A stretch of DNA of 64,000 bases, from contig JAEULK010000013.1 of the NCBI GenBank assembly GCA_016793775.1, positions 1 to 64,000 of the forward strand, given 5' to 3'. The position numbers and the translations under genes were made by a program. The stretch's first letter is position 1, and every line of letters begins with the position of its first letter. Source of the DNA: Sphingopyxis sp. Its GTDB lineage: Bacteria > Pseudomonadota > Alphaproteobacteria > Sphingomonadales > Sphingomonadaceae. The notes under the pieces were generated by a model, which was not told the DNA's origin, did no database searches, and saw nothing but the letters and a program-made list of their open reading frames with translations. Below, piece after piece: positions 45,100 to 50,689 of this stretch.

Positions 45100-46287
45100 T
45101 CAGCTCAGCCGCGTCTTGAAATCGGCATAGCCGAATTCGCGGACGAGGGTCAGCGCGTCGCTTTCGCTGTCCCACAGCCAGATCGAGGGCAGCGGCACGC
45201 CGTTGAAGCTGTTGGTCTTGACCATCGAATAATGCGCCTGGTCGAGGAAGGCGAAGCGCTGGCCGATCGCGGCGCCGCCGGGCAGGCGATAATCGCCGAT
45301 GACGTCGCCGGCGAGGCACGAGGGGCCGCCAAGGCGCGTCGGCGTACCGTCGTCTTCTTCGCCTAGCATAGCGGGGCGATAGGGCGCCTCGATGACGTCG
45401 GGCATGTGGCAGGTCGCACTGATGTCGGTGATGCCGATCGGCATGCCGTTGTCGAACAGGTCGAGGACTTCGCCGACGAGGATGCCGGCGTCGAGCGCGA
45501 TCGCCTCGCCGGGCTCGATCATCACCTCGGCGCCGGTCGTCTCGCGCACGCCCTTCAGGAAGGCGATCAAATCATCGATCTGGTAATCGGCGCGGGTGAC
45601 ATGGTGGCCGCCGCCGAAATTGATCCATTTGAGATGGCCGAAATACGGACGCAGCACGGGTTCGATCGCGGCCCAGGTGCGCGCGAGCGGCGGGAAATCC
45701 TGTTCGCACAGGCTGTGCATGTGGATGCCGTCGACGCTGCGCATATGCTCGGCGGTCAGCTGGTCGACCGGGAAGCCGAGGCGGCTGCACGGCGCGGCGG
45801 GGTCATATTTGGGCACCTCGCCCTCGCTGTGCAGCGGGTTGATGCGCAGGCCGATGTCGAAGCTTTCGCCCGCGGCGCGTGCCTCGTCGAGGATCGGGCG
45901 GAAGCGTGCGATCTGGTCGGGCGAGTTGAAGATCAGATGGTCCGACAGGCGGGCGATCTCGGGCAGATCCTCGGCCTTATAGGCGGCGCAATAGGTCGCG
46001 ACCTCCTTGTCGCCGCGCGGCCCGCCATATTCCTCGCGCCCGAGCCGCGCTTCGTAGAGGCCCGACGCGCAAACGCCGTCGAGCGTGCCGGCGACGGTCG
46101 AACCCAGCGACCACATCGAAAAGGCCTTGAGCGCCGCGAGCACCCGCGCGCCCGACGCGTCGCCGATCTGGCGCAGCACGCCAAGGTTCGCCCGCACCTT
46201 CGCCGCATCGACGACGAAGGCGGGCGAGGGGACGCGGTTGAGGTCGAAATGGGCAAAGGCCCCGGGGTCGCCGGCTCTGGTTTCCAT
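45100..46287 (-). CDS. nspC: Carboxynorspermidine/carboxyspermidine decarboxylase
   Basis: A PLP decarboxylase of the alanine-racemase-fold NspC group (395 residues) that removes CO2 from carboxynorspermidine or carboxyspermidine to give the triamine. The PLP lysine is Lys54 in LAALKAFSMWS. Other marks are HMHSLCEQDFPP, WINFGGGHHVTRADY, IEPGEAI and the late TCHMPDVIEAPYRP and GPSCLAGDVIGDY. Its partner dehydrogenase is at 49419-50627 on the same strand, with other genes between. A shortened copy of its first 61 codons is fused to the peptidase gene at 48918. Confidence 0.95.
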   Translation of the reverse strand: METRAGDPGAFAHFDLNRVPSPAFVVDAAKVRANLGVLRQIGDASGARVLAALKAFSMWSLGSTVAGTLDGVCASGLYEARLGREEYGGPRGDKEVATYCAAYKAEDLPEIARLSDHLIFNSPDQIARFRPILDEARAAGESFDIGLRINPLHSEGEVPKYDPAAPCSRLGFPVDQLTAEHMRSVDGIHMHSLCEQDFPPLARTWAAIEPVLRPYFGHLKWINFGGGHHVTRADYQIDDLIAFLKGVRETTGAEVMIEPGEAIALDAGILVGEVLDLFDNGMPIGITDISATCHMPDVIEAPYRPAMLGEEDDGTPTRLGGPSCLAGDVIGDYRLPGGAAIGQRFAFLDQAHYSMVKTNSFNGVPLPSIWLWDSESDALTLVREFGYADFKTRLS

Positions 46288-46365: not shown

Positions 46366-47367
46366 TCAGGCCACCGGCACGTGCACATTGCCCGTGGCGG
46401 TCTGCACCGAATAGCTGAACGGGGTGTCCTCCCAGCCGATCTTGGCGGCGCCATGGACCCCGTCGCGGCGGATGACCGCGATGCCGCCGCCGATCCGGTA
46501 ACCGGCATCGGCGATGCGCTGGAGTGCCGCTTCGGCCGCGGCCTGCGGGTGCATGCCGCCGCGCATCAGTTCGACCGCGTGATAGGTGGGCAGGAAGCGC
46601 ATCATCACATCGCCATTGCCCGTCGCGACCGCGCCGCCGACCGCCTGATCGCCATAGGCGCCCGCGCCGGGGATCGGCGAATCGCCGACGCGGCCGGGGA
46701 TCTTGCACTCGCGGCCGTTGGTCGAGCAGCCGACGGTCAGGTTGCCCGCGGCGTCGAGCGCGATGCAGCCGACGGTGTCGTGGCCGGCGAGCTTGGCGTC
46801 CTTCGCCAGCGGTTCGGGGCCGAAGGCGTCGGACTTCTCGCCCTTTTCAGCCCATTTGGCGAAGGCGGCCTGCGACTTGGGGCCGGTGAGCGAGGTTTCG
46901 GCGAAGCCCATGCGCGCCGCGAAGCGCGTCGCATCGTCGCCGACGATCAGCGTGTGCTGGGTTTCCTCCATCACCTTGCGCGCGACCGAGATCGCCTTTT
47001 TGACACGCTTCAGGCAGCCGACCGCGCCGATGTCGTGCGTCGGTGCCCACAGGATCATCGCGTCGAGCGTTGTTTCGCCGACCTCGTTGGGGACGCCATC
47101 GGCGCCGACCCAATAATCGCCGAGCAGTTCGACATGGTTGACCGCCGCCTCGACCACATCGAGCGACGAGGCGCCTTGCGCGAGCATGGGCCAGCCGACG
47201 GCGTTGGCGCCGGGGCCGAAATTCCAGGTGGTCAGGATGAAGGGCTTGCCGGTGGGGATGGGCGCGGGTTTTGCCGGCTTGGCGGCTTCGGCTGCGACCG
47301 GCAGCGCGGCGAGGCCCGCTGCGCCGGCGGCGAAGTGGCGCCGCGAAATTGCCTTGTCGTCCGCCAT
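46366..47367 (-). CDS. N4-(beta-N-acetylglucosaminyl)-L-asparaginase family hydrolase
   Basis: An Ntn-hydrolase of the glycosylasparaginase family (333 residues) that self-cleaves before its catalytic threonine, Thr198 in GHDTVGCIALDAAG. The N-terminus carries a twin-arginine signal (SRRHFAAGAAGLAALPVAA, about 8-26), so it is folded before export to the periplasm. Later GRVGDSPIPGAGAYGD and GNGDVMMRFLPTYHAVE match the substrate pocket of the family. The start at 47367 begins this Tat signal. It lies between the two polyamine genes without a clear link to them. Confidence 0.92.
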   Translation of the reverse strand: MADDKAISRRHFAAGAAGLAALPVAAEAAKPAKPAPIPTGKPFILTTWNFGPGANAVGWPMLAQGASSLDVVEAAVNHVELLGDYWVGADGVPNEVGETTLDAMILWAPTHDIGAVGCLKRVKKAISVARKVMEETQHTLIVGDDATRFAARMGFAETSLTGPKSQAAFAKWAEKGEKSDAFGPEPLAKDAKLAGHDTVGCIALDAAGNLTVGCSTNGRECKIPGRVGDSPIPGAGAYGDQAVGGAVATGNGDVMMRFLPTYHAVELMRGGMHPQAAAEAALQRIADAGYRIGGGIAVIRRDGVHGAAKIGWEDTPFSYSVQTATGNVHVPVA

Positions 47368-47407: not shown

Positions 47408-47758
47408 TCAGGTCGCAATCGGTCCCTTGAAGATGAAGAAGGCGCCGCCCGCGATCAGCAGGAAGCCGACGAGATGGTTGAGCGTCAGCTTCTCGCCGAG
47501 CCAGAAGACCGCGAAACCCGCAAAGACGATCAAGGTGATCACCTCCTGCATCGTCTTGAGTTCGGCGGTCGAATAGACGCTGTGGCCCATGCGGTTGGCG
47601 GGCACGACGAGGCAATATTCGAAAAAGGCGATGCCCCAGGCGATCAGGATCGCGAGCCACATCGGGCGCGAAATGTCGCCGAGATGCCCGTACCAGGCGA
47701 TCGTCATGAAGATGTTCGAGACGACGAGCATGAAGATCGGCAGGATATAGGGCGTCAT
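47408..47758 (-). CDS. DMT-family small membrane protein (DUF486)
   Basis: A 116-residue protein with four predicted membrane helices, of the DUF486 group in the drug/metabolite transporter superfamily. The conserved middle SVYSTAELKTMQEVITLIVF is typical. The substrate is not known. Its ATG overlaps the stop of the upstream peptidase gene by four bases, so the two are coupled. Confidence 0.88.
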   Translation of the reverse strand: MTPYILPIFMLVVSNIFMTIAWYGHLGDISRPMWLAILIAWGIAFFEYCLVVPANRMGHSVYSTAELKTMQEVITLIVFAGFAVFWLGEKLTLNHLVGFLLIAGGAFFIFKGPIAT

Positions 47759-48918
47759 CGGCGGTCCTTCGTCAGCGGCAGCACGTCCTTGAGCAACGCG
47801 GCGAAGAAATGGCCCGGCTCCTCGACCATCGGCATATGCGCCGAATGTTCGAGCCAGATAAGCTTTTTCGACGGCGCCCGGACCTGCGCCAACCAGTCGG
47901 CGGCGACCGGCGAGGGCACGGTATAGTCATGGCGGCCGAGCAGGAAGACGATCGGCACGTCCATCTTCTTCACGGGCCTGAAACTGACGTCGGCGAGGCG
48001 CGGCCAGAGCGTCGTGACCGAAAATTCGCTGCCCTGGCCCCACGCCTTGCGGTCGGCCTCCGTATATTCGGGCGAGAGGCGCGGGGTCTGGAAATAATAT
48101 TTGAGATCGGGCTTGTTGTAGATGAGCGACCCATAGGGGATCGCATATTTGCGCCAGCCGTCGGCCTTGGCGATGGTGAAGTCGCCGCGCGGATACGGGG
48201 CGAGCGCGTCGATGGCGTCGACCGCGTCCATATCGCCCGCGATCAGCGCCTTGCTGCGCGTCCACGCCATGCCGACCGCCTCGCCCTCGCGGAAATCGAT
48301 GCCCTGGCCGACCCCGACATAGGCGTAGAGCAGGTCGGGGCGCTTCACCGCGACCGACAGGCCGACGATCGAGCCCCAGCTGTGCCCCATCAGCACGACC
48401 TTTTTCTTGCCATAGCGTTTCTTGAGCAGTTCGATGAGTTCGATCGCGTCGTCGCGGTAGCGGTCGGGGGTCATCGTCGGCGCGAGCGTCCTGGGATCGT
48501 TGAGCGGGTAACTGCGCCCGGCGCCGCGCTGGTCGTACTGGACGACGGTGAATACATCCTCCCACGGGCGCTGGAAGGCCCAGGCGAAGGGCATTTCGAC
48601 CGCGCCGGGGCCGCCGTGGACGAAGATCAGGATCGGATTGTCGCGGTCGGCACCCCGCACGTTGACCACCTGCCGCGCGCCGCCGAGCGTGACCTCGAAG
48701 GTTTCCTGCGCGCCGTTCGGGGTGACGATCTTGCCGATGTCGGCAACGATGGCGCGCGCGGGAGCGTAAGCGTCGTCGGTTTGCGCAGCGGCGGGGGTGG
48801 TGAGGGCGGCAAGCAGGAGCAGGCCGACCGACCATCTCGAAAACGCCTTCCGCGCAGCAAGCAAGCGGGTGAGGTCGAAACGGGTGAAAGCCCCAAGGTC
48901 GCCGTCTCTCGTTTTCAT
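47755..48918 (-). CDS. Secreted alpha/beta hydrolase, proline-iminopeptidase-like, with an nspC-derived N-terminus
   Basis: A 387-residue alpha/beta hydrolase (S33 peptidase-like) with HGGPGAVEMPFAWAFQRPWE, the nucleophile elbow GHSWGS, and a late Asp (LGRHDYT) and His (LEHSAHMP). A hydrophobic segment at about 30-46 ending TTPAAAQ is its export signal. Residues 1-31 do not belong to the family: MKTRDGDLGAFTRFDL and ARKAFSRWS match residues 1-16 and 52-60 of the nearby NspC, joined across a deletion. The start at 48918 is the ATG inherited from that copy; the inverted-repeat cassette ends 15 bp upstream. Confidence 0.85.
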   Translation of the reverse strand: MKTRDGDLGAFTRFDLTRLLAARKAFSRWSVGLLLLAALTTPAAAQTDDAYAPARAIVADIGKIVTPNGAQETFEVTLGGARQVVNVRGADRDNPILIFVHGGPGAVEMPFAWAFQRPWEDVFTVVQYDQRGAGRSYPLNDPRTLAPTMTPDRYRDDAIELIELLKKRYGKKKVVLMGHSWGSIVGLSVAVKRPDLLYAYVGVGQGIDFREGEAVGMAWTRSKALIAGDMDAVDAIDALAPYPRGDFTIAKADGWRKYAIPYGSLIYNKPDLKYYFQTPRLSPEYTEADRKAWGQGSEFSVTTLWPRLADVSFRPVKKMDVPIVFLLGRHDYTVPSPVAADWLAQVRAPSKKLIWLEHSAHMPMVEEPGHFFAALLKDVLPLTKDRR

Positions 48919-48933
48919 ATGTAGCAGTTCCAA

Positions 48934-49415
48934 GGTTTCACGCAGAGGCGCGGAGGGAGCAGAGACCGCGGAGAATCATTCTTCCGGGCGGTAATCATTG
49001 ACGATCCGCTTTATGCCTTCCTTCATCGTCGCGCCCGAAAGTTGTGGAGCAGCCCGACGGGCTGCTGTAAAATTCTGAGATAGGTCAGGAGTTGCCTGGC
49101 ATGGGCTTTGCCCAACTGCTCGACAGCTTTGATCTCCAACACAACCCGGTCGTCCACCAGAATATCGACCCTGAAGGCTGTCTCGAAATGATGGCCGCCT
49201 ACCATTAACGGCACGGCCAACTGGCGTGCCACTTTCAATCCCCGCGCTTCGAGCCGGCCCGCCAATACGGTCTCATAAACGATCTCGAGCAAGCCGGGTC
49301 TCAAAAGCCGATGAATCGCGATCGCCTCATCGACGACGATGGCGCCGACATCGTCCATTCGCATCCGACCCATCTCTCTGCGGTCTCTGCATCCTCTGCG
49401 CCTCTGCGTGAAACC
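48934..49415. mobile_element. Inverted-repeat cassette carrying the GxxExxY gene
   Basis: The 41-bp arms at 48934-48974 and 49375-49415 are inverted copies with four mismatches, each beginning GGTTTCACGCAGAGGCGC at the outside. They abut the coding region: one base separates the inner edge from the start codon and one base separates it from the frame-repaired stop. The outer edges lie 15 bp from the peptidase start and three bases from the carboxynorspermidine dehydrogenase stop. No target duplication was found. Mobility is inferred from the architecture. Confidence 0.6.
48976..49373 (-). pseudogene. GxxExxY protein gene with a frameshift near its 3' end
   Basis: The unshifted frame (49023-49373) gives 116 residues with the family motif GLLEIVYE (GxxExxY), FRVDILVDDRVVLEIKAVEQL and LLTYLRILQQPVGLLHNF, a PD-(D/E)XK-nuclease-like core (D, then ExK). 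After HNFR the frame is lost and stops at once. One base more restores GATMKEGIKRIVNDYRPEE and a stop at 48976, the normal C-terminus of this family. The cause could be mutation, sequencing error or recoding. GxxExxY proteins are small and of unknown function. Confidence 0.8.
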
Positions 49416-49418
49416 GAA

Positions 49419-50627
<1,209 letters not shown>

Positions 50628-50689
50628 CAAAATCTCCTGCGCCTAGCTATGCGGCTTGTCTTGTATGCCGCGCCCTATAGGACGAAGCC

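Follow-up and report, generated by a model that had tools for sequence, protein, structure and literature searches.

The minus strand of the window, the 64-kb stretch of Sphingopyxis DNA analysed here, carries in gene order a dehydrogenase resembling carboxynorspermidine synthase (SYN), a small cassette holding a GxxExxY gene (GXY), an alpha/beta hydrolase (PEP, the peptidase of the initial annotation), a transporter (DMT), an asparaginase-2 family protein (ASN) and a full-length nspC, which resembles carboxynorspermidine decarboxylases (Table 1). Genes were named by profile search. The GxxExxY gene scored 109.3 bits against TIGR04256 (curated cut-off 35) and the hydrolase 71.3 bits against the alpha/beta hydrolase fold PF00561 (Pfam gathering score 25.8), both above their thresholds. 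SYN (407.7 bits against NF043000, cut-off 800), nspC (369.7 bits against TIGR01047, cut-off 409.05, with the whole profile covered) and the hydrolase (58.7 bits against TIGR01250, cut-off 167.65; 58.6 bits against NF045948, cut-off 500) all fall under curated NCBIfam cut-offs, so that these three names express sequence resemblances only. Rfam gave no match at gathering score anywhere in the window.

Table 1 Features of the locus, in the order in which they are read on the minus strand.
Feature	Positions	Strand	Remarks
SYN, carboxynorspermidine synthase-like dehydrogenase	49419..50630	-	Profile search
Cassette, left inverted arm	49375..49415	-	3 nt past SYN stop codon
GxxExxY gene	49023..49373	-	TIGR04256 / PD-(D/E)XK family PF13366; profile search
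Cassette, right inverted arm	48934..48974	-	
Leader between cassette arm and hydrolase ATG	48919..48933	-	15 nt; GGAA nine bases before ATG
Alpha/beta hydrolase, fused reading frame	47755..48918	-	Proline-iminopeptidase-like; profile search
nspC fossil (first 30 codons of hydrolase frame, start codon included)	48829..48918	-	nspC codons 1-18 and 49-60
Fossil block 1	48865..48918	-	Counterpart of nspC codons 1-18 (46234-46287)
Fossil block 2	48829..48864	-	Counterpart of nspC codons 49-60 (46108-46143); opens with in-frame TTG (codon 19)
Hydrolase's own hydrophobic core of putative signal peptide, codons 31-45	48784..48828	-	VGLLLLAALTTPAAA ahead of presumed AQ cut
DMT-family transporter	47408..47758	-	PF04342; profile search
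Asparaginase-2 family protein	46366..47367	-	PF01112; profile search
nspC, carboxynorspermidine decarboxylase-like, full length	45100..46287	-	Profile search
nspC piece missing from fossil, codons 19-48	46144..46233	-	Exactly 90 nt, in frame

The nspC fossil and the hydrolase leader

Local alignment of the 5′ region of the hydrolase with that of nspC scored 72.0, against 44.0 for the best of 2000 dinucleotide shuffles and 43.4 for the best unrelated place in the window. The initial annotation, which had described the peptidase gene as beginning with a shortened copy of nspC, was therefore right in its main claim, and the same fusion was found in a second genome, that of Sphingopyxis sp. HIX (labelled G031 here; the window’s own genome is G000). 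The two nspC blocks that the initial annotation described were confirmed with altered boundaries: the missing piece is codons 19-48 rather than 19 to about 49, and the second block takes in codons 49-60 instead of 52-60. All that is left of the decarboxylase is these two stretches, a remnant and not an enzyme, with no complete decarboxylase domain. The sequence CGCGT stands at both ends of the missing 90 nt in the nspC of 46 of 74 genus genomes, HIX included.

When the fossil region was searched with blastn against 80 genomes of the genus, some match appeared in 26, at full length only in the window and HIX (88%). The other matches were partial, many of them nspC starts, and fell into two separate blocks: one at query 18-71 (81% in the window’s own nspC and, in the best congener, G076, 85% with E 8e-11) and one at query 69-112/114 (84% in G003, 83% in G058). 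A scan for a second nspC start upstream of nspC, beginning from SYN where present, scored 81.2 in HIX, 68.7 in the window and 36.1 in the next of 74 genomes, with a maximum of 31.2 on reversed target sequence. Chance or low complexity as the source of the similarity is ruled out by the shuffle, blastn and upstream-scan scores. Of 28 loci returned by a search of a collection of named genomes with the hydrolase, only HIX matched from residue 1 within one gene length; ten other rows matching from residue 1 spanned more than 1.5 kb, which would fit the search having joined a hydrolase to the true nspC start downstream. The 30 codons, whose presence in orthologues would have told against the initial annotation, are carried by none of the 38 other hydrolase genomes read, a result in its favour.

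HIX shows the same fusion junction and the same 90-nt deletion as the window, and the two fossils share eight departures from the consensus for their nspC type (five of them judged synonymous by eye), which is what descent of the fossil from another nspC allele would produce; their sequences mark the two fossils as having one origin. The best match to nspC of the genus is 77/90 nt for the HIX fossil and 73/90 nt for that of the window. The bases before the start codon read TGCTACAT-ATG in the window and TGCCATAT-ATG in HIX, so that the match upstream of the ATG (CTACAT) to which the initial annotation had pointed is present in the window, absent in HIX and weak as evidence.

Behind the fossil lies the hydrolase’s putative Sec signal peptide, with a core reading VGLLLLAALT. 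Three comparators have 20 residues before the presumed AQ cut, the window 45. An ATG that leaves 19-24 residues ahead of this cut (the criterion being an ATG yielding at most 30 residues) is present in 38 of the 40 genomes with the hydrolase; the exceptions are the window and HIX, with 45, of which 30 in the chimera are nspC-derived. The GGAA nine bases upstream of ATG 48918 is present at the same place in HIX, which has one further in-frame ATG three codons upstream, and ATG 48918 is the likely hydrolase start in cells.

Between the window and HIX the 30 codons differ by eight non-synonymous and four synonymous changes (dN/dS 0.60), as compared with a dN/dS of 0.185 for the mature hydrolase domain. 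The eight amino-acid changes equal the 8.0 expected at random; against the nspC consensus, the window’s fossil shows nine where 11.7 would be expected at random for 18 changes. The 12 differences in 90 nt are fewer than those at synonymous sites of the hydrolase and nspC (binomial P 2e-4) and not fewer than those in SYN (P 0.17). This comparison of window and HIX gave no sign of protein-level selection on the 30 codons, so the N-terminal extension is probably ballast, tolerated since it carries the start.

Gene orders and cassettes between SYN and nspC

Regions around nspC were read in 74 of the 80 genus genomes; the remaining six (G009, G018, G042, G048, G071, G073) had no usable nspC stretch. 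The order SYN-PEP-DMT-nspC was found in 28 genomes (plus two without SYN on the stretch), SYN-DMT-nspC in 20 (plus one without SYN on the stretch), SYN-PEP-DMT-ASN-nspC in eight, SYN-nspC in seven (three of them with 0.35-2.1 kb of other sequence in between), SYN-DMT-ASN-nspC in five and SYN-ASN-nspC in one, while the order including the cassette was confined to the window and HIX. The stop codon of SYN and the start of nspC overlap in G015 and G017 and lie 2 and 5 nt apart in G056 and G074. SYN and nspC thus overlap or stand at most 5 nt apart in four of the 71 genus genomes having both, in agreement with the ancestral order dehydrogenase-nspC put forward in the initial annotation. Its further proposal, that a duplication had brought three genes in between, finds no support in the congeners: hydrolase and transporter lie ahead of nspC in 38 of them (two without SYN on the stretch), eight also with the asparaginase, and no nspC copy shows in any of the 38.

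Across the 74 genus loci and 30 family loci, the SYN/nspC junction is an insertion hotspot, where GxxExxY, the hydrolase, the asparaginase and the DMT transporter, along with palindrome-like repeats recognised by inspection, are found in many combinations. One genome (G023, contig C5) has a second hydrolase copy, 87-88% identical to the window’s, away from the SYN-nspC locus.

Of 298 family genomes, 67 were found to have GxxExxY genes, and 61 of the 67 belong to other genera. Among these 61, nspC was found in 34, and in eight of the 34 a GxxExxY gene stands between SYN and nspC, all three on one strand, giving the placement of the cassette between dehydrogenase and nspC that had been read from the window a counterpart elsewhere. 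The nspC start falls 1-24 nt past the right arm in seven of these eight loci (in the other, G335, the two are separated by about 1 kb of other sequence), and the window shows a gap within this range, with its nspC-like ATG 15 nt past the right arm. The SYN match ends 4-15 nt before the computed left arm, again in seven of eight (G235 overlaps by 8). In the rest of the family (30 loci), SYN and nspC are near neighbours with no GXY or are separated by other sequence. An exact pattern of cassette end plus nspC-like start, run over 397 family genomes, matched the window alone; HIX lay outside that draw, and the pattern missed all eight SYN-[GXY]-nspC genomes within it, which makes its negative uninformative.

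In a tree of the GxxExxY protein (79 rows and 111 columns, with many forks unresolved), the window, HIX and six of the eight SYN-[GXY]-nspC loci form an eight-row clade with support 100/96, to the exclusion of 28 other copies from the genus, 12 from the family and 29 from the phylum; the window’s cassette is kin to those of SYN-[GXY]-nspC loci. Near its 3′ end (49023-49060) the window’s GxxExxY gene apparently has one base fewer than that of HIX and a shorter frame (131 vs 147 aa). In the remaining two of the eight, from two other genera (G368, G335), the SYN/nspC junction holds a GxxExxY of a different subfamily, so that this junction has been occupied at least twice.

The HIX fossil, besides its best score, averages 71.6-75.1 of 90 positions against groups of genus nspC (n = 74), and against nspC from other genera it averages 66.1, with a best of 76 in L334 (n = 30). 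This closeness to nspC of the genus points to retention within it, and the sequences are most simply read as an ancient SYN-[GXY]-nspC junction of the genus that survives in the window. The window and HIX fall within one eight-genome clade of the SYN+nspC tree, yet not as sisters, and in a quick tree their mature hydrolase domains belong to different sublineages, the window pairing with G026 and HIX with G044/G012. One therefore has to add that the fused start was replaced or transferred: either some relatives regained the ordinary start or the module travelled.

Proposed formation of the chimera and rival explanations

We consider it likely that the hydrolase is a chimera, formed when a hydrolase-transporter-asparaginase-nspC block joined a relic SYN-[GXY]-nspC and took the start of the displaced gene. 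The hydrolase’s start codon, its probable ribosome-binding site and its first 30 codons would then be the remains of an nspC that stood behind SYN and the cassette. As to the type and direction of recombination, the order of events and the use of the fossil ATG, we infer that an existing block, like those of G026 or G012, recombined onto SYN-[GXY]-nspC, with one end probably paired by homology (at SYN, or at nspC and beyond) and the other joined illegitimately and in frame, from nspC near codon 60 to the middle of the hydrolase signal peptide. The hydrolase would have lost its own start in this event and taken over that of the displaced nspC, whose remaining piece would have been shortened by a 90-nt in-frame deletion of slippage type, probably between the two short CGCGT repeats. 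The product would be the 45-residue leader, composed of 30 former nspC residues and the old hydrophobic core, in place of the usual 19-24. By inspection, the nspC/hydrolase join shows no long homology; the parental sequences are not preserved.

In favour of this explanation are a fusion far above chance, a junction, a deletion and eight differences held in common with HIX, the ordinary ATG of the 38 other hydrolase genomes, the GxxExxY genes between SYN and nspC in eight genomes of other genera, the cassette clade that unites the window and HIX with six of those, and the closeness of the HIX fossil to nspC of the genus. Counting against it are the finding of a whole SYN-[GXY]-nspC in none of the 74 genus genomes, the fact that the two genomes with the fossil are not sisters, the near equality of L334 nspC (76) with the best genus copies (77) in matching the HIX fossil, the sequence CGGGT, not CGCGT, at the second repeat of the window’s own nspC, and the lack of visible protein-level selection on the 30 codons. 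Three competent species and E. coli are known to undergo homology-facilitated illegitimate recombination (PMC3240628), which has also been proposed for remnants of displaced genes in Vibrio (PMC5361080); the latter paper calls such recombination rare, which also weighs against our explanation.

A head-to-tail tandem duplication of the segment between the hydrolase signal peptide and nspC codon 60, followed by deletion of the upstream copy and independent insertion of the cassette, would yield exactly such an nspC::hydrolase junction. The window’s CTACAT, found within 20 nt upstream of nspC in nine of 74 genomes, resembles the leader of the nspC type mostly preceded by the asparaginase, a type that both fossils fit at five of seven diagnostic sites; however, CTACAT is absent in HIX, and the diagnostic AGA at codon 4 occurs also in the SYN-nspC genomes G015 and G074. 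Since a second event would be required for the loss of about 2.3 kb, and yet another to set kin of the nspC-linked cassettes down just there, we hold this course of events to be quite improbable. Derivation of the fossil from an asparaginase-preceded nspC (CTACAT, codon 4 AGA) had been a candidate of its own and was demoted to this rival on account of HIX lacking CTACAT and of the SYN-[GXY]-nspC loci elsewhere. It is less far-fetched, though still rather unlikely, that the nspC part is largely an untranslated leader and that codon 19, an in-frame TTG, serves as the start, which would give a signal peptide of ordinary shape with 27 residues and a positively charged n-region of 12. That TTG is present in both genomes and the amino-acid changes of the fossil between them appear unconstrained, but no bases like a ribosome-binding site precede it, whereas the ATG with its GGAA is kept in both. 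The frame is also open from the ATG in both genomes, a point of little weight, as about 0.70 of simulations with 12 random changes leave it open too.

Alternatively, a small module of fused start and cassette may have passed from lineage to lineage, in place of descent from the common ancestor of the eight-genome clade; we hold this to be less likely than not, though likelier than the other rivals. SYN+nspC does not place the window and HIX as sisters, and their mature hydrolases pair with different genomes; in addition, dS between them in the 5′ half of SYN is 0.14, against 0.17-0.31 between the window and each of the six others of the clade, and their dN in DMT is the lowest among the window’s pairs. 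On the other side, synonymous divergence of the GxxExxY gene between the two is 0.55, at least that of nspC and the mature hydrolase (0.38 each), which argues against a recent transfer of the cassette. That the fusion is a chance similarity, assembly error or annotation artefact has next to nothing in its favour: the window’s assembly is in 106 contigs, but HIX is a second genome with the same fusion, and alignment and scan scores are far beyond those of shuffles.

Chimeric bacterial genes arise by partial duplication or recombination, and the hydrolase resembles them in that the 5′ part of one gene continues in frame into the body of a second. It differs in that the donor piece comes from a gene without a signal peptide and is set before a signal-peptide core, and in that the source arrangement can be traced through the cassette. 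Autotransporters have extended signal peptides, whose n-region is long and charged and whose hydrophobic core is ordinary; the hydrolase leader is like these in shape and differs in that its extension is nspC-derived and free of visible protein-level constraint. We liken the event to the model for Vibrio T6SS immunity-gene arrays (PMC5361080), in which a block is anchored by homology at one end and illegitimately joined at the other, with a piece of the displaced sequence left alongside. Here, by contrast, what remains of the displaced gene is its 5′ end, which would be read as the start of the incoming one, by a mechanism that we infer. The locus is a traceable molecular fossil and not a new system: a bacterial gene would have gained a new N-terminus because the start of a displaced gene was kept and the incoming gene was read from it. 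Living relatives still show the donor arrangement as well as the chimeric and the ordinary state, so the steps are testable. The case is also a warning that an automatic gene start can rest on the fossil of another gene.

GxxExxY cassettes at other junctions

RAYT/REP and other small repeat-bounded cassettes consist of a single small gene between related inverted repeats and lie between genes. The GxxExxY element is like them in layout and differs in its protein family, PD-(D/E)XK. In the window the cassette measures 482 bp (48934-49415), with 41-bp arms. Inverted arms scoring at least 20 flank 28 of 30 GxxExxY loci in the genus (maxima of single-letter shuffles 12-16), many of these being the same locus in different species and not independent, and 20 of 29 examined loci in a phylum draw (30 fetched; shuffle maxima 12-17). 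Mispaired phylum flanks reach 20 in 129 of 812 cases, with means of 22.2 for own and 16.9 for mispaired flanks; mispaired flanks also score because the repeat units are alike. The corresponding control for the genus (368 of 870) is unreliable, given that loci were not turned to match the strand and that orthologous loci were among them. An apparent ‘inverted orientation’ of cassettes was discarded as an artefact of the same kind, the signs following the strands of loci that had not been turned.

The arms are built of short tandem units (CGCAGAG, CGCGGAG, CGCGAAG and CGCAAAG types), alike in the two arms of one cassette and differing between cassettes. Only junctions checked individually are named here, as automatic neighbour genes gave inconsistent strands. 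The leuC-leuD junction holds a cassette, in gene direction, in two genomes (G079, L147; G022, L155), where both genes are whole and a new leader lies ahead of leuD. Among 30 leuC-leuD loci fetched out of 79 matching genomes, 23 are empty, with stop and start touching and the next start 1-3 nt after the aligned leuC end (one of them, G062, with a different-looking next gene), and five have other sequence there. A fabD-[GXY]-fabG arrangement was checked by family at one locus (L149), and others in its group show the same downstream start by inspection.

GxxExxY cassettes look like a widespread element. We tentatively suggest, with more doubt than conviction, that they are operon-junction elements, of which two different subfamilies settled independently at SYN/nspC, and that the next start, with the arm immediately before it, stays fixed to the cassette when the gene behind is displaced, to be captured by a newcomer. 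Were this reading true, a PD-(D/E)XK gene between matching inverted arms would sit between stop and start, leaving the genes whole and supplying a new leader, and the window’s hydrolase would be such a start capture. A text search of literature lying mostly outside subscription journals returned no mention of six arm sequences or, by name, of PDDEXK_3, and nothing on point for clusters or for borrowed starts; GxxExxY is named in two papers, in one of them (PMC8934634) in a passage on reverse transcriptases, and PF13366 in one.

Relatives of the GxxExxY gene were seen in four plasmid records. In the window’s own genome, an arm-like motif pattern gave 19 matches, against 12 for a reversed control pattern. 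The same genome contains arm-like inverted pairs measuring 120-242 bp end to end, on contigs C89 (2223-2354, 12439-12558), C55 (27052-27293) and C85 (6885-7011), which are too close together to hold a GxxExxY gene and may be gene-less relatives of the cassette.
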